The translations under genes were made by a program, and so were the position numbers. The notes beneath the pieces were generated by a model. That model was not told where the DNA came from. It made no database searches and saw only the letters and a program-made list of their open reading frames with translations. A stretch of 56,635 nucleotides of DNA, taken from positions 1 through 56,635 of the forward strand of contig CAISJV010000002.1 in assembly GCA_903885795.1 (NCBI GenBank), given 5' to 3'. This document shows, one piece after another, positions 26,844 through 56,593 of this stretch (positions are counted from its first letter, which is position 1; each line of letters opens with the position of its first letter). This DNA comes from an uncultured delta proteobacterium. GTDB taxonomy: Bacteria > Desulfobacterota > Syntrophia > Syntrophales > UBA8958.

Positions 26844-27027
26844 CGCCGCTAATCCCTCCTATAATATTATCCCTCAGTCTTTCCCATAGAACCCATGAAT
26901 TTACTGATACTCATACACGGATTACAAAGAAATATCATTGTTTTTCTGTGTTGCTAATCCCGGATTTCTCCCTCCGTTCTAAATTCCATTCTCACACCTC
27001 CGTCTTTGACCTGATCCCAACTTTGGC
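26844..27027. other. Intergenic segment before toxin-antitoxin operon 1
   Basis: Contains the ribosome site of the HD gene and, at 27006-27018, a short GACCTGATCCC stretch resembling the 3' half of the dispersed motif found at 28177, 29153, 55133 and 56391. No gene is visible. Confidence 0.4.
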
Positions 27028-27055
27028 TTGACATGGCTATCATTATGGCTATAAT
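27028..27055 (+). promoter_or_regulatory. Consensus promoter with operator-like repeats, TA operon 1
   Basis: TTGACA (27028-27033), 16-bp spacer, TATAAT (27050-27055): both hexamers match the sigma-70 consensus. The octamer ATGGCTAT occurs at 27033-27040 and again at 27044-27051, 11 bp (one helical turn) apart and overlapping the promoter. That is where an antitoxin dimer would bind to repress its own operon. Confidence 0.8.
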
Positions 27056-27090
27056 ACTCACAAGGGTTATATGAAGCGAGGTGAAAAGCG

Positions 27091-27375
27091 ATGAGCAGAA
27101 GCGTTTCGGTGGCGGAGGCCAAGAACAAGCTCCCTTCCATCCTTCGTGAAGTGGAGGAAGGATCTATTGTAAAGATTACCAGATATGGAAAAGCAGTAGC
27201 GATGGTAATTCCTGAAAGAGATTACCGGCGCCTGGTGGAAAAGGGGCAAGGATTCTGGGCGAGTCTCGGGAAAGTGAGGAACCTTATCTCCTCCGAAAGT
27301 ATTATTATTGATGAAAACGATCTTAAGAATCTACGTGACCAGTTGCCCGGTAGAGCGTTCGTTTGGACTCCATGA
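27091..27375 (+). CDS. Phd/YefM-type antitoxin (TA operon 1)
   Basis: A 94-residue antitoxin. The N-terminal DNA-binding part has the family pattern SVSVAEAKNKLPSILREVEEG ... VKITRYGKAVAMVIP, with the RYGKPVA-type turn; the C-terminal region would wrap the toxin. GAGGTG lies 8 nt before the ATG. The stop overlaps the toxin start (ATGA), the usual coupling. It is expected to neutralise the downstream PIN toxin and repress the operon. Confidence 0.9.
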   Translation: MSRSVSVAEAKNKLPSILREVEEGSIVKITRYGKAVAMVIPERDYRRLVEKGQGFWASLGKVRNLISSESIIIDENDLKNLRDQLPGRAFVWTP

Positions 27376-27788
27376 AATATCTCCTGGATACCAATGTTGT
27401 TTCTGAATTAGTGAAACCAGACCCTGACCAGGGAGTAATGGAACGGTGCAAGCAGCATCAAAGTGAGTTGGCCATCGGCGCTCCGATCTGGCATGAGTTG
27501 CAGTTTGGCTGTTATCGGATGCCCCTTTCAAAGAAGCGAGAATTACTGGAAGTCTTCCTCGAAGAGGTTGTTCGCAGAAATCTTCCGATACTCCCCTACG
27601 ACGAACGCGCTGCCCACTGGCAGGCCATAGAACGAGCCAGATTAACCTCTGAAGGACAGCCCCCTTCCTTTGTCGATGGCCAGATCGCAGCCATAACCGC
27701 AACCAACGGTTTAACTCTGGTCACACGCAATATTGATGACTTTCGATTGTTCACCGGATTGAAATGGGAAAAATGGCACCAGGGGTAG
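27372..27788 (+). CDS. vapC: PIN-domain VapC-type toxin (TA operon 1)
   Basis: A 138-residue PIN endoribonuclease. The acidic metal-binding residues are in place: Asp in MKYLLDTNVVSEL, Glu in IWHELQFG, Asp in SFVDGQIAAI and the TRNIDDF segment. VapC toxins cleave tRNA or rRNA and stop translation until neutralised. Start ATG at 27372 overlaps the antitoxin stop. The gene looks intact. Confidence 0.92.
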   Translation: MKYLLDTNVVSELVKPDPDQGVMERCKQHQSELAIGAPIWHELQFGCYRMPLSKKRELLEVFLEEVVRRNLPILPYDERAAHWQAIERARLTSEGQPPSFVDGQIAAITATNGLTLVTRNIDDFRLFTGLKWEKWHQG

Positions 27789-28040
27789 AAAATATCCTCA
27801 GGAACAACTGGCGGATAGAAAGCGGCTTTATATTTTGAAGAGCATTTCAGACAGGCAGGCTTTGAAACACCCTTGTTAGCACGATAATTAACCTCTCACT
27901 ATTTACCCTTCACCATTCACATATTTTTATAACCATCACTGATTTTATTCACTATTCACCTTAAACTTTTCACTGGACTACAAATATCGTCTTTTTCTCT
28001 CAACTTTTTTCTTTTCCCTTTTAGCGTTTAACTGGCTCTT
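27789..28040. other. Intergenic, AT-rich, degenerate
   Basis: About 250 bp with several near-repeats of CACTATTCACC/TTCACCATTCAC and no reading frame of note. The final ~60 bp resembles the stretch before the second Wzt relic (28950-29013), so this is the upstream part of the repeated module. Confidence 0.5.
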
Positions 28041-28178
28041 ATGACCTACATCGACATCAAAGTTGAACACCTGGGCAAAAAATACATCATCGGACACCAG
28101 GCTGAACCTGTCCCCTATCTTGCTTTTGCGCGACGTACAGATGCAGAATCCCCGAACCAAAATCAGAATAACTGTTAA
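28041..28178 (+). pseudogene. Relic of Wzt (O-antigen ABC transporter ATPase) N-terminus, copy 1
   Basis: An ATG opens 45 codons giving a peptide with IKVEHLGKKYIIGHQAE, the hallmark N-terminus of polysaccharide-export ABC ATPases of the Wzt/TagH type. The frame then stops before any Walker motif, so only the first strand of the ATPase remains. It ends at the dispersed AAGGCAAGACCTGACC motif. A second, frame-shifted copy lies at 29014. Whether the short frame is translated is unknown. Confidence 0.65.
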
Positions 28179-28192
28179 GGCAAGACCTGACC
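28177..28192 (+). repeat. Dispersed motif AAGGCAAGACCTGACC, copy 1
   Basis: Sixteen bases identical to the core of the copies at 29153-29170 and 55133-55152 (one mismatch in the last) and close to 56391-56410. It lies 20 bp upstream of the TTGACA of toxin-antitoxin operon 2. Confidence 0.8.
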
Positions 28193-28211
28193 TCCAATTT
28201 TCAATTTTCTC

Positions 28212-28250
28212 TTGACAGAGTTTAGTTGTACAGGATAGGTTGTACATAAT
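28212..28250 (+). promoter_or_regulatory. Promoter/operator region of TA operon 2
   Basis: TTGACA at 28212-28217 is followed by weak -10 candidates around 28234-28240. The palindromic heptamer TTGTACA occurs at 28226-28232 and 28240-28246, 14 bp apart, between the -35 and the ribosome site, a probable antitoxin operator. Confidence 0.6.
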
Positions 28251-28269
28251 ATTCTTGAGGAGGTCATGT

Positions 28270-28512
28270 ATGAGATCATTATCCGTATCATCAGCACGCA
28301 GCAAGCTGACATCTCTACTCGACGATGTTTTGATAAATCATGAGACCATCATCATCAGCCGCAAGGGAAAGCCTGTTGCCCATCTGGCTCCGATTCCGCC
28401 TGACATCTGTCGGGAGGAGGCCGCTCAATTTCCTTTACGAGGAATTTCCATTTTCATTGCTGATGATTTTGATGAGCCTCCTGCAGGGTTATGGGAGGCA
28501 TTAGAACAGTGA
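28270..28512 (+). CDS. Phd/YefM-type antitoxin (TA operon 2)
   Basis: An 80-residue antitoxin beginning MRSLSVSSARSKLTSLLDDV, with the conserved turn IISRKGKPVAHLAP, followed by a short acidic tail (ADDFDEPPAGLWEALE) that probably contacts the toxin. The ATG at 28270 has GAGGAGG 6 nt upstream; a longer frame would overlap the promoter. The stop overlaps the toxin GTG by four bases. Confidence 0.9.
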   Translation: MRSLSVSSARSKLTSLLDDVLINHETIIISRKGKPVAHLAPIPPDICREEAAQFPLRGISIFIADDFDEPPAGLWEALEQ

Positions 28513-28904
28513 TTGTGCTTGATACGCATGTCTGGCTCTGGTGGTTACATGATCCCGCGAGGTTATCGCCGGCTGCTGATAAATTGATACAGCAAGAACA
28601 GGCATCTGGCGCCCTCATCCTTTCTGCTATTTCTGTTTGGGAGGTGGCAGTAAAGATACAAATGGGCAAACTTGCGATTCCAATGGATATCCACCGTTGG
28701 TACGATTTGGCCAGAAGCTACCCGGCAACAGTCATTGAACCGCTCTCACCTTCTGATGCCATTGCCAGCACATTACTTCCGGGCAATTTTCATAAGGATC
28801 CGGCGGACCGCATTATAATTTCTCTGGCTCGAAGACTTGCCGTACCCTTGCTGACCTGTGATCGTAAAATTCTAGATTATGAGCATGTCATAACGGTTTG
28901 GTAA
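28509..28904 (+). CDS. vapC: PIN-domain VapC-type toxin (TA operon 2)
   Basis: A 131-residue PIN nuclease with VIVLDTHVWLWWLHDP at the start, SVWEVA (Glu), KDPADRIIISLA (Asp) and LLTCDRKIL (Asp). The WLWW variant places it in the PIN subgroup usually paired with Phd-like antitoxins. I choose the GTG at 28509, ten bases after GGGAGG and overlapping the antitoxin stop; an upstream ATG at 28491 is possible. Looks intact. Confidence 0.9.
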   Translation: MIVLDTHVWLWWLHDPARLSPAADKLIQQEQASGALILSAISVWEVAVKIQMGKLAIPMDIHRWYDLARSYPATVIEPLSPSDAIASTLLPGNFHKDPADRIIISLARRLAVPLLTCDRKILDYEHVITVW

Positions 28905-29013
28905 ATAAAAGGTGAACCCGTCCCCAATTCCCCACAAAATGCTCTATGGCCAAACTAAATAATTTATCTCATCTCACCCTTTACGATTCACCTCTAACTT
29001 TTAATTGGGCCTC

Positions 29014-29174
29014 ATGTCCTCATCGTTATCAAAGCTGAAAACCTCGGTAAAAAATACGTCATCGGCCACCAGACTGAACGTGCCCCTTATCTGGCTTCAG
29101 CGCGATGTACTAATGCAGAAGAATCCCGAGAGCCCAAAATCAGAATAACTGTCAAGGCAAGACCTGACCCCTGA
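29014..29174 (+). pseudogene. Relic of Wzt N-terminus, copy 2 (frameshifted)
   Basis: In one frame the DNA encodes LIVIKAENLGKKYVIGHQTE and ends at a TGA at 29172-29174, again the N-terminal strand of a Wzt-type ATPase. The ATG at 29014 is out of frame with this by a single missing base, so it is a dead fragment. The nucleotide sequence is about three-quarters identical to copy 1 and its last codons run into the dispersed motif at 29153-29170. Confidence 0.65.
29153..29170 (+). repeat. Dispersed motif CAAGGCAAGACCTGACCC, copy 2
   Basis: Identical in its 16-base core to copy 1 at 28177 and in the same orientation. Together the two copies bracket toxin-antitoxin operon 2 as direct repeats. Confidence 0.8.
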
Positions 29175-29243
29175 TTGAAGTTCATTCCTGCCCCCGATCG
29201 TGAAATGATTCCAGCGCCCCTTATATGCGCCTGGTGTTTGCGC

Positions 29244-53949: not shown

Positions 53950-54387
53950 TTATGTCTCCGAATTTTCCCCAATCCAGTGGACCCACGGCAAATCCTTTTG
54001 CACAGTGTTAAACAATCTTTCATCCGCTGTGATCAAATCGACACCTTTGAGTTCAGCTAGGGCCAGATAGCTGGAATCATAAACAGAACGCCCATATAGA
54101 TGGCAATATTGAAACATTTTGTCTGCAAAAAAAGAGACATCGTAAAACTGGATACCCAGGCTCATGAAGCCACTGAAGGACAACGAAATGGTATTCTGGT
54201 CGAGGCGTGCGCGCCGGCCGGCGATTACCAACCCATTCATTAGTTCGTAAGTAAGCAGGGACGGAGCCAGTATTTCCAATTCCCCGGCGGTGCATTTTTG
54301 CAGTAAAGCCAGCGCCTGCACGCCGTGCGCCTCATCATGGAGATACCATTTCAGAATCGCGCTGGCATCAACCACAGCCCGCTTCAT
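53950..54387 (-). CDS. vapC: PIN-domain VapC-type toxin (TA operon 3)
   Basis: A 145-residue PIN nuclease: VVDASAILKWYLHDE (Asp), LLTYELMNGL (Glu), SVYDSSYLALAE (Asp) and DLITADERLFN (Asp). The DASAILKWYLHDE form is typical of VapC proteins paired with Phd-like antitoxins. The ATG overlaps the antitoxin stop by 4 bp. It looks intact; the target RNA is unknown. Confidence 0.92.
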   Translation of the reverse strand: MKRAVVDASAILKWYLHDEAHGVQALALLQKCTAGELEILAPSLLTYELMNGLVIAGRRARLDQNTISLSFSGFMSLGIQFYDVSFFADKMFQYCHLYGRSVYDSSYLALAELKGVDLITADERLFNTVQKDLPWVHWIGENSET

Positions 54388-54650
54388 GGCTTTTCTTCCA
54401 GTTGAGTCCTGGATTCCCGATAGACATCATCGGCTTTGATGCCACTCTTTAAAAAAGCCTCCCTGGCTTCCATGATGTTTTGATAACCCTCCATTCGGGC
54501 ATTGCGTTCATATTCATGGAAGGGGACGATGACGGCCACAGGTTTTCCTCGGCGTGTGACAATGATATTCGCTCTTTTTTCCTCAGTGTCGTGAATAAGG
54601 CGACTAAAACCTTTCTTGCCTTCGGCAATGCTAACGGTTGTACTGTTCAT
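54384..54650 (-). CDS. Phd/YefM-type antitoxin (TA operon 3)
   Basis: An 88-residue antitoxin starting MNSTTVSIAEGKKGFSRLI, with the conserved NIIVTRRGKPVAVIVPFHEYE core and an acidic C-terminal tail. The ATG at 54650 has AAGGTGG 5 nt upstream; three more codons upstream are possible. It is expressed from the promoter at 54684-54712. Confidence 0.9.
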   Translation of the reverse strand: MNSTTVSIAEGKKGFSRLIHDTEEKRANIIVTRRGKPVAVIVPFHEYERNARMEGYQNIMEAREAFLKSGIKADDVYRESRTQLEEKP

Positions 54651-54683
54651 TGGGTCCACCTTTATGACTCTTTATGATGACTA

Positions 54684-55044: not shown

Positions 55045-55152
55045 CCTTACCTATGTCGGAGCTCCGGCACACCCTCCGACCGCCTCGGGCATGGGTGTTA
55101 ATACGCTTTGTGTCCCCGGAATTACCAAATGTGTCAAAGCAAGACCTGACCC
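55045..55152 (+). repeat. Paired flanking repeat, copy A
   Basis: Begins CTTACCTATGTCGGAGCTCC, continues with CACACCCTCCGAC, a variable spacer, AATACGCTTTGTGT and CCAAATGTGTCAAAGCAAG, and ends in ACCTGACCC. Copy B at 56274-56410 follows the same order in the same orientation. It lies 41 bp upstream of the promoter of TA operon 4. Confidence 0.75.
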
Positions 55153-55193
55153 TCTCCCTTCATGCGTGACCCCATTGCCCCATAAAAAAGGTG

Positions 55194-55222
55194 TTGAAAA
55201 ATATGCTCAATACCTCTATGAT
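55194..55222 (+). promoter_or_regulatory. Sigma-70 promoter of TA operon 4
   Basis: TTGAAA (55194-55199), 17-bp spacer, TATGAT (55217-55222), 68 bp upstream of the antitoxin ATG. A longer antitoxin reading frame starting at 55191 would overlap this promoter and is rejected. Confidence 0.75.
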
Positions 55223-55225
55223 ACT

Positions 55226-55265
55226 AACTATTGGAGAAACATCTCCCGACGCCGCTCCAATAGTT
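55226..55265 (+). promoter_or_regulatory. Inverted repeat operator or leader hairpin, TA operon 4
   Basis: AACTATTGGAG (55226-55236) and CTCCAATAGTT (55255-55265) are perfect 11-bp reverse complements separated by 18 bp. The element starts 4 bp after the -10, so it covers the transcription start: either the AbrB-type antitoxin operator or a hairpin in the leader mRNA. Confidence 0.7.
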
Positions 55266-55289
55266 TCATATCATGTGAAGGAGGGACAA

Positions 55290-55568
55290 ATGGGACAGAC
55301 TATCGAAGTTTCGATCGACAACCACGGCGGCATTCTGTTGCCCCAGGAGTTGAAGAACCGCCTTGGGCTGTTGCCGGGAATGACCATGGTTGTTGAAGAG
55401 GACGACGACGCGAGGGTTTGCCTGCGTGTGCAGACAGAGTCGCCGGAGCTGGTCGACAAACAGGGTATCATCGTCGTCAGAGCCGAATCATCGGAAGATT
55501 TGACAAACATAACCAGCCGCGCGCGCGACCGCCGCGTGTCGGATCTGCTGCATAGGTCCGTCCGATGA
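55290..55568 (+). CDS. AbrB/MazE-type antitoxin (TA operon 4)
   Basis: A 92-residue protein. The N-terminal swapped-hairpin (SpoVT/AbrB) DNA-binding domain is clear: IEVSIDNHGGILLPQELKNRLGLLPGMTMVVEE. The C-terminal half, with RAESSEDLTNITSRARDRR, should bind the PIN toxin. GGAGGG lies 5 nt before the ATG at 55290. The stop overlaps the toxin ATG by four bases. It differs from the other three antitoxins in the window, which are Phd-like. Confidence 0.92.
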   Translation: MGQTIEVSIDNHGGILLPQELKNRLGLLPGMTMVVEEDDDARVCLRVQTESPELVDKQGIIVVRAESSEDLTNITSRARDRRVSDLLHRSVR

Positions 55569-55999
55569 AAGTTCTCCTGGACACATCCGTCCTGGTGGCG
55601 GCCATGGTCGAGGCGCACCCGGCGCACGAAAAGTCTCTCCCTTGGCTTCAGCGAATCAAGAAGGGTTCAGATTCAGGTCTGGTATCGGCCCATTCGGTTG
55701 CCGAATTATATGCCATCCTGACGACATTGCCGATGAAGCCCCGCATCTCGCCCATCGTCGCTTACGACCTGATTAAACGCAACGTCTTTGATCTTTGTGA
55801 AGTGTTGCCTTTATCGGCCGAGGATTACAGCGCCGTCACAAAATACCTTTCCGAGGAGGGGATTACCGGCGGCGTCACCTATGATGCAGTGATCCTGTAT
55901 GCGGCGATTAAGGGAAAGGCGGATCGTGTCGTGACGCTCAACGAAGGTGATTTTCGCCGGATCTATCCGCAGATGACAGAGCAGATCGTTTCCCCATGA
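55565..55999 (+). CDS. vapC: PIN-domain VapC-type toxin (TA operon 4)
   Basis: A 144-residue PIN nuclease: VLLDTSVLVAAMVEAHPAH (Asp), HSVAELYAIL (Glu), GVTYDAVILYAA (Asp) and VVTLNEGDFRRIYP. The last motif has N-E-x-D in place of a plain aspartate, common in this subgroup. It is paired with an AbrB-type antitoxin by an ATGA overlap. Confidence 0.92.
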   Translation: MKVLLDTSVLVAAMVEAHPAHEKSLPWLQRIKKGSDSGLVSAHSVAELYAILTTLPMKPRISPIVAYDLIKRNVFDLCEVLPLSAEDYSAVTKYLSEEGITGGVTYDAVILYAAIKGKADRVVTLNEGDFRRIYPQMTEQIVSP

Positions 56000-56016: not shown

Positions 56017-56178
56017 ATGACATCATGCTTACACCAAATTTGCCAAGTCGGGCTGCCTGAATTGCGCCGCGATGAACCAACCATTGCTGAGCTGAAAGAA
56101 ATTGCGGATAATAAAGGCCTTGGTATGTCCACACTCGTCAGAATGTGGGTGCAGGAGCAGCTTGCCGGTAACGCCTAA
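56017..56178 (+). pseudogene. Relic of a ribbon-helix-helix-type antitoxin (C-terminus)
   Basis: A 53-codon frame whose second half reads LKEIADNKGLGMSTLVRMW, the helix-turn typical of CopG/BrnA-like antitoxins (IA...G(I/L)G..TL(I/V)RMW). The N-terminal part that should carry the upstream strand is missing or degenerate and no ribosome site or toxin gene accompanies it. I read it as the remnant of another toxin-antitoxin operon just behind operon 4. Confidence 0.55.
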
Positions 56179-56273: not shown

Positions 56274-56410
56274 CTTAACCTATGTCGGAGCTCCGACACA
56301 CCCTCCGACAAAAAGGGGCAGATTTGAGAAATTCAACCATGACCCCTTTTCACGATTAATACGTTTTGTGTTCCCTGAATTCCCAAATGTGTCAAGGCAA
56401 GACCTGCCCC
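56274..56410 (+). repeat. Paired flanking repeat, copy B
   Basis: Same order of blocks as copy A: CTTAACCTATGTCGGAGCTCC, CACACCCTCCGAC, then a longer variable spacer, AATACGTTTTGTGT, CCCAAATGTGTCAAGGCAAG and ACCTGCCCC. With copy A it brackets TA operon 4 and the antitoxin relic as direct repeats ~1.2 kb apart. Confidence 0.75.
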
Positions 56411-56593
56411 CCTTGCCCCCTCAGCGTGGTGCTTCAATAGGCTGTATTTTAATCGTTATCAAGGAGTAGTTTATAATTTAACAGCGTCCCTCTTTACTTT
56501 ACACTTCAATTTTACTCTGTTGCGAGTTCGTGACATGTCCGGTTTGTAGCACGTAATCTGTCCGGTTCATATAGTCATCTGTAGAGGTGACAG
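56411..56593. other. Probable left end of an insertion sequence
   Basis: Between repeat B and the transposase start. The motif TGTCCGGTT occurs at about 56537-56545 and 56568-56576, as expected for subterminal repeats of an insertion element. The exact end cannot be fixed without the other end. Confidence 0.45.

Follow-up and report, generated by a model that had tools for sequence, protein, structure and literature searches.

Integrons are the textbook platform for gene cassettes in bacteria, and to our knowledge it is not settled how integron cassettes first acquired their recombination site. TIRYT elements possess a terminal inverted repeat whose consensus is given as GGGGWSAS in the accessible text of PMC3733652 and, according to the accessible part of PMC6006769, are tied to subclass 2.1 of the Y1 transposases, with C-terminal HTH domains. 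The word "toxin" does not occur in the main text of PMC3733652. In Vibrio cholerae, T6SS orphan-immunity arrays are attributed to homology-facilitated illegitimate recombination in the accessible text of PMC5361080. No paper on toxin-antitoxin (TA) cassettes tailed by such repeats was found in the covered part of the open-licence PMC literature.

The window analysed here is the whole of a 56,635-nucleotide contig (C2) from the assembly of an uncultured delta proteobacterium of the order Syntrophales (G000; 4.0 Mb, 95 contigs). Between 27.0 and 29.2 kb it contains, all on one strand, a first TA operon (TA1), a CT-rich leader, a relic of the wzt start (relic 1) and a motif, followed by a second TA operon (TA2), a leader, relic 2 and the motif again. 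TA1 consists of a Phd/YefM antitoxin at 27091-27375 (PF02604, E 4.5e-11) and a PIN-domain (VapC-type) toxin at 27372-27788 (PF01850, E 1.1e-9), and TA2 of a Phd/YefM antitoxin at 28270-28512 (PF02604, E 4e-9) and a PIN-domain (VapC-type) toxin at 28491-28904 (PF01850, E 3.8e-14), all on the forward strand. With Phd adjoining PIN and both pairs above the Pfam cut-off, TA1 and TA2 have the predicted gene layout of type II TA systems. The first copy of the common tail (28014-28194, forward) comprises the end of the CT-rich leader, relic 1 at 28041-28148, a short ORF beginning MTYIDIKVEHLGKKYIIGHQAE and recognised by translation, tblastn and alignment, and the terminal-repeat motif at 28181-28194 with one mismatch. 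The second copy (28987-29171, forward) comprises relic 2 at 29021-29120, recognised by tblastn and alignment, and the motif CAAGACCTGACCCC at 29158-29171. The ATG of relic 1, at 28041, lies 252 nt past the stop of the first PIN gene, and relic 2 begins about 110 nt past that of the second. A possible decayed motif copy is located 5' of TA1 at 27008-27017 on the forward strand (GACCTGATCC, one mismatch from GACCTGACCC); it is a weak candidate because 10-mers with one mismatch also arise by chance, and the window has 11 of them where about 3 are expected. No RNA element of Rfam matched at E <= 1 in 26.8-29.3 kb.

The two tails are related along their whole length. Relic 1 (28049-28148) and relic 2 (29021-29120) share 82% identity over 100 nt, the 3' tails (28157-28199 and 29134-29176) share 91% over 43 nt, and both tails terminate in AAGGCAAGACCTGACC(C/T)C. 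Aligned as a single block, the 29.0-kb and 28.0-kb copies are about 80% (79-80%) identical over 184 nt with E 4e-38 to 7e-38, and the block E-value of 4e-38 excludes chance likeness; a reading of the locus made from the sequence alone (the sequence-only reading) had put the identity of the relics at about 75%, so that the likeness stands and the figure rises to about 80%. In tblastn with the intact Wzt of G083, relic 1 corresponds to codons 1-29 (66%, E 9e-5) and relic 2 to codons 4-28 (76%, E 6e-6), and both relics are Wzt in origin. They keep roughly the first 33 codons and stop at the same truncation point; as neither is a full-length ATPase with Walker motifs, they are relics and not genes. 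Pfam, tblastn and alignment thus bear out the earlier description of two wzt 5' fragments, each 3' of a Phd-PIN operon and closed by the same motif. The search of the genome for more relics that had been suggested, in which all 26 first-look candidates of the 4.0-Mb assembly were scored, gave none beyond these two, and two more matches, both on contig C56, cover a 25-nt part of the motif only. An intact Wzt of the relic type was absent from G000 at E <= 1e-20 among the 27 of 55 first-look candidates that were scored. A plasmid origin was rejected: the relic DNA had no match on plasmids, and the plasmid relatives of both PIN toxins are all below 60%.

The toxins of TA1 and TA2 have a best local alignment of 12 residues (E 29), and local alignment of the two antitoxins gave none. 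Since the TA operons are non-homologous and the tails alike, the repeating unit is the tail, that is the wzt relic plus the motif, with differing cargo in front of it, and not TA operon, relic and motif together as first proposed; the amplification of a TA unit, also proposed, fails for want of detectable homology between TA1 and TA2. Tandem duplication of a TA-plus-relic unit would explain two units in tandem with similar tails, and is scarcely credible given the toxin and antitoxin comparisons, which refute it for the TA part. The window feature is therefore a variable TA cargo on one common 3' tail.

The relic DNA was searched for in 155 genomes of the order, with at most five candidates per genome scored, and matches were obtained in 12 of them: G000 itself, G020 with an array of relics, nine genomes with an intact wzt and one with a match to the motif end only. 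Under these limits five truncated wzt copies were found (two in G000 and three in G020), and every one is located 3' of a TA-type pair, in agreement with the suggestion that further relics might also be preceded by TA genes. A sixth remnant, 8 codons long in G064, also lies by eye behind a TA-type pair. Of the counter-proposal that the relics are random remnants of a wzm-wzt pair unrelated to TA units, the first half holds, as they are remnants of wzt, and the second does not, as their position is not random with respect to TA genes.

The array of G020, a member of another family of the same order, is found on its contig C4 and reads HicA pair, truncated wzt, Phd/PIN, truncated wzt, HicBA, truncated wzt, the partner of the first HicA being assigned to no family. 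Its Phd/PIN block is 92% identical in DNA to TA1 (27026-27828 of the window, forward strand, blastn), with dS 0.22 and 0.18 and dN 0.03 and 0.07 for PIN and Phd, respectively; that dN is well under dS suggests, as far as sequence comparison goes, selection to retain the pair. The three relics all start at the wzt start and end at different codons (about 137, 110 and 69). No motif was found in this array at up to two mismatches, so the motif is not needed for arrays of wzt relics, and the common part of the G020 array is wzt and not the motif. Two processes may be superimposed in the window. Relics of G000 and G020 are 21-29% divergent in the longer alignments, with one 40-nt stretch identical, and because this divergence exceeds the dS of TA1 (about 0.2), the TA genes and the tail may have separate histories.

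Intact wzm-wzt junctions were also compared. A search for Wzt gave 30 loci, 14 of which were counted as having a wzm with at least 74% identity to the G083 protein. The spacer between wzm and wzt is at most 20 nt in ten of these and 449-639 nt, with cargo, in the other four. In G144 the insert is a TA-like pair, with a YafQ-like toxin (E 1e-5, under the Pfam cut-off) and a partner without Pfam hit; G051 has a 23S_rRNA_IVP four-helix-bundle gene in this place, and the inserts of G074 and G120 are visibly, by eye, genes of that kind. In G064 the order is a wzm fragment, a ParE-type TA, a leader, 8 wzt codons and an intact wzm-wzt. The G144 and G064 arrangements, together with the low dN of TA1, would suit a graveyard kept by addiction, in which TA genes lay between an old wzm and wzt, locus replacement eroded both up to a TA that could not be lost, and the repeats are incidental. 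Such a history is quite unlikely for the window, where two different TA operons carry a tail with the same truncation and the same repeat and where no wzm fragment was detected at 25-31 kb (E 1e-3), hence none near TA1; the array layout, moreover, recurs without wzt on contigs C56 and C78, in the first 12 kb of which neither wzm nor wzt was found.

Some further features of these junctions were noted. By eye, the upstream side of the G144 insert, too, seems to bear the wzt start in a short copy. Four-helix-bundle (23S_rRNA_IVP-type) genes lie between wzm and wzt at L278:1030-1500, L280:1050-1500 and L269:1030-1560, flanked by inverted arms AGTGAAAAGTGAAA and TTTTCACTTTTCACT, and the CT-rich leaders 5' of the wzt relics in the window resemble one such arm.

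The motif has a wide distribution. The sequence GCAAGACCTGACCCC occurs 12 times in G000 and its reversed control not at all; the motif is present in 38 of the 155 genomes of the order (against two hits overall for the reversed sequence), and scanning genome contigs gave at least 119 stretches from many phyla. Among the 119 stretches listed, 18 bear a Y1-transposase-like ORF, and outward inverted pairs of the motif are found at 22. Nine Y1 genes among the matches listed have outward motif copies (at most one mismatch) on both sides, namely L082, L100, L121, L143 and L178 among the 119 stretches, and L207, L322, L323 and L324 found in the order. Seven of seven motif-neighbour proteins scanned belong to PF01797, and five show a C-terminal HTH at E <= 0.001, mostly under the Pfam cut-off. 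Read from the outside inwards the motif is GGGGTCAGGTCTTG, and its reverse complement starts GGGGTCAG and fits GGGGWSAS. Because it flanks Y1 genes and fits the TIRYT consensus, the motif is one end of a TIRYT-type (Y1, IS200-like) element, that is, the terminal repeat of Y1 transposases. G000 itself has no Y1_Tnp match at E <= 0.001, so the window holds solo ends and not an element. Canonical REP was rejected, as neither GTAG nor GTGG is found on either strand of the 14-nt motif.

Several observations concern the motif in other settings. In L100, L124 and L138, short tandem units directly 3' of the motif repeat its flank several times, each closing with a 5'-truncated motif copy that retains GACCCC. 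The 16-mer TGCAAGACCTGACCCC was found in 27 stretches of a viral collection of 2.9 million contigs, one member of which, L351 (7381 nt), carries the exact motif six times, four times on one strand and twice on the other, partly in inverted pairs. A phage origin was rejected, one 26-nt form of the C78-type tail being found in none of the viral contigs.

The arrangement of TA cargo and 3' repeat is not confined to the wzt relics. A further cassette in the window is bounded by forward motif copies, each with one mismatch, at 55140-55153 (5') and 56398-56411 (3'), and contains a putative antitoxin without Pfam hit and a PIN toxin (55191-55999, forward; PF01850, E 4.9e-14); its tail is 94% identical to contig C13 over 318 nt. 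Contig C78 bears a 9.4-kb array that direct copies of the motif divide into nine intervals, when copies with as many as two mismatches are included and one 9-nt gap is ignored. Pfam names identify TA-type pairs in seven of the nine: MNT with HepT-like, DUF433 with DUF5615, an ORF without assignment with AbiEii, MNT with NTase_sub_bind, HicAB (HicA under the cut-off; followed by an ATPase and a nucleotidyltransferase), UPF0175 with DUF3368, and Phd with ParE. Several of these named pairs are known TA systems. The remaining two intervals contain ORF6N and an AAA_14/DUF4143 ATPase. C56 and the 55.1-56.4 kb cassette have the layout of C78 with different tails. Tails are mostly alike inside a locus (two on C56 are 87% identical over 278 nt) and unlike between loci, but C78, G007 and G132 include exceptions. 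The proposal of cassette-like accretion is upheld by these loci, which add to the unrelated TA operons on one tail in the window, and by a genome of the same genus, G007, where the flanks are conserved and the cassettes between them differ.

In G007 the corresponding site, C88, retains both flanks of C78 around an array of 0.87 kb instead of 9.4 kb. The left flank is 87% identical over 2.3 kb and the match stops at the last base of the motif, about 70 nt shortly 5' of the left motif being different; the right flank is 84% identical over 144 nt. One ORF6N cassette is common to both sites, with 96% identity between its start codon and the end of its motif, and has other neighbours in each. The comparison shows a variable content bounded by the motif, in which gain is not told from loss, and deletion alone could account for the difference. 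The AbiEii cassette of C78 is also present in motif-bearing loci of four other genomes at 79-85% identity.

Orientation was assessed for the 33 motif copies of nine array sequences, using a crude ORF caller by which a few ORFs may be spurious. The upstream ORF (within 450 nt) is co-directional with the motif in 26 of 30 cases in arrays and in 63 of 127 in control loci of other phyla (Fisher P 2e-4), and the downstream ORF (within 150 nt) in 14 of 17 and 34 of 92, respectively (P 9e-4). Four of the 30 motifs, with an upstream ORF that is not co-directional, and one inverted copy in C78, located where the ParE gene ends, are exceptions. The array ORFs scanned with Pfam were 19 from L035 (C78), one of the 68-aa type from G007, five from L225, four from L229, one from L228 and three from L005, those of L231 (G020:C2), G128, G011, G106 and G115 being left out; the G128 and G011 loci have no clear TA layout by eye.

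The arrays show other features as well. A Phd/PIN-like pair recognised by eye on the reverse strand at 53950-54659, just before the 55-56.4 kb cassette, makes four TA-like pairs in the window together with TA1, TA2 and that cassette. By eye, the tail of the 55-56.4 kb cassette has an antitoxin-like remnant, PTIAELKEIADNKGLGMSTLVRMWVQEQL (56017-56178; L036:3294-3377), which is found also on C13 and in another family (G090), and wzt may not be the only gene to have left relics in tails. A short ParB-like gene lies in or beside arrays at L225:4029-4799, L229:3673-4455, L231:7760-8626 and L264:4342-5142, the L225 copy having ParB_N and HTH_ParB hits. In G141 (L271:2527-3404) an MNT/HEPN-like pair, by eye, precedes a motif copy with a 32-nt tail that matches the window tail at 91% and lacks the wzt part.

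The identity of the motif raises the possibility of a transposase-driven, integron-like system. Here a TIRYT/Y1 HUH enzyme would act on single strands that carry its terminal repeat twice in direct orientation and cut each copy immediately 3' to GACCCC, and the excised circle of cargo plus repeat would be reinserted behind another copy in the manner of IS200/IS605, the wzt relic being a passenger. Besides the motif being the terminus of Y1 elements, this would account for the breaks in homology at its last base, seen on the left side of C78/C88 and again where the common cassette ends on the right, and for the single subterminal sequence common to most tails of a local array; precise breaks of this kind keep an enzyme-driven reading alive. 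It is nevertheless unlikely for the window: a Y1_Tnp match is missing from G000, the motif is absent from the flanks, of at most 1.5 kb, that were fetched with 12 of the 16 Y1 matches in its family, and the G020 array is free of the motif. Outside the order, moreover, the genes next to the motif are of ordinary kinds, and the 25 commonest of their 157 families (134 motif-neighbour ORFs of other phyla, in which single TA hits could hide) include no TA family; the window control, with 44 ORFs outside arrays and the 25 most frequent of 110 families, could hide single TA hits in the same way. A more general form, in which Syntrophales-type bacteria possess an integron-independent cassette system that inserts TA or defence-like genes, with a TIRYT end on their 3' side, behind another such end and builds direct arrays including relics of host genes such as wzt, is conceivable but improbable.

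The cassette layout, the shared 3' tails and the position of the repeat close to the start codon in many cassettes also recall an integron or CALIN with divergent attC sites as tails, and of the 155 genomes searched in the order, 60 have an integron integrase above the model cut-off, among them G007, G020 and G077, which bear arrays. Two defining features are nevertheless absent, and the explanation was rejected as very improbable. No GTTRRRY core is found on the motif strand within 12 nt of the motif 3' end in the nine array sequences, and G000, where 13 of 26 candidates were scored, has no integrase above the cut-off (best TIGR02249, E 3.6e-22). What the motif does flank is Y1 transposases, and no copy of it was found in six fetched integron-integrase loci.

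The locus is probably a two-unit array of TA cassettes, accreted at a wzm-wzt junction by means of a portable tail of relic plus repeat. For the recombination route, the order of events and retention through TA activity we infer the following. TA and other small, selfish-looking cargo would have settled at the wzm-wzt junction, directly 5' of the wzt start, and successive incoming DNAs, each with cargo before wzt, would have recombined through the shared wzt and left truncated wzt starts behind. In the G000 lineage a transposon terminal repeat may then have come to sit at the end of one relic, and relic plus repeat would have become a portable homology anchor, a copy of which accompanied a second, unrelated TA. 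As both window tails end alike, the tail would have been copied as a unit, after truncation. In general, a repeated 3' tail, whether wzt start, terminal repeat or both, could supply homology for more cargo with a like tail, and the shared tails would be recombination anchors at which TA cassettes accumulate. The TA genes may persist while wzt decayed because cells that lose an active pair are penalised.

Recombination without a dedicated enzyme is favoured because G000 has no Y1 match and G020 no motif. Homology-facilitated illegitimate recombination fits G020, where one homologous joint is combined with a variable other joint, seen in the differing relic ends; the window relics end alike, and recombination between repeats and a Y1 enzyme acting at repeats both fit their tails. 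No single route explains both arrays, and the most economical account is anchor-driven accretion.

The locus can finally be set beside the known systems. With REP/RAYT (REPIN, BIME) it shares dispersed repeats linked to Y1 transposases and outward inverted pairs, and differs in lacking the GTAG/GTGG tag and in having a repeat of the terminal type. The likeness to TIRYT/TIRtron elements, as described in the accessible text of PMC3733652 and PMC6006769, includes the fit to GGGGWSAS, a Y1_Tnp with C-terminal HTH-like stretches and dispersed solo or paired copies; the arrays of G000 differ in having single ends, in direct orientation, behind TA cassettes. In the T6SS immunity arrays, as far as the accessible text of PMC5361080 describes them, incoming modules likewise anchor on a conserved gene while old cargo and gene remnants stay, with the anchor upstream and the 3' parts of effectors remaining, whereas here the wzt anchor is downstream, 5' relics remain and the cargo is TA; in both the mechanism is proposed and unproven. 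Like integron arrays, the present ones combine cargo with a 3' repeat that is often near the start codon, are mostly in one orientation, have locally similar tails and are TA-rich with variable content between fixed flanks; unlike them, they have no attC core at junctions and no linked integrase was seen, and the repeat is that of a Y1 element. Cassette-like arrays thus recur here with a non-integron repeat, one belonging to single-strand Y1 transposases. In the wzt relics the origin of the tail can be traced to a neighbouring gene, which makes the gain of a shared 3' tail by cargo testable and suggests a natural way for TA genes to collect next to polysaccharide loci.
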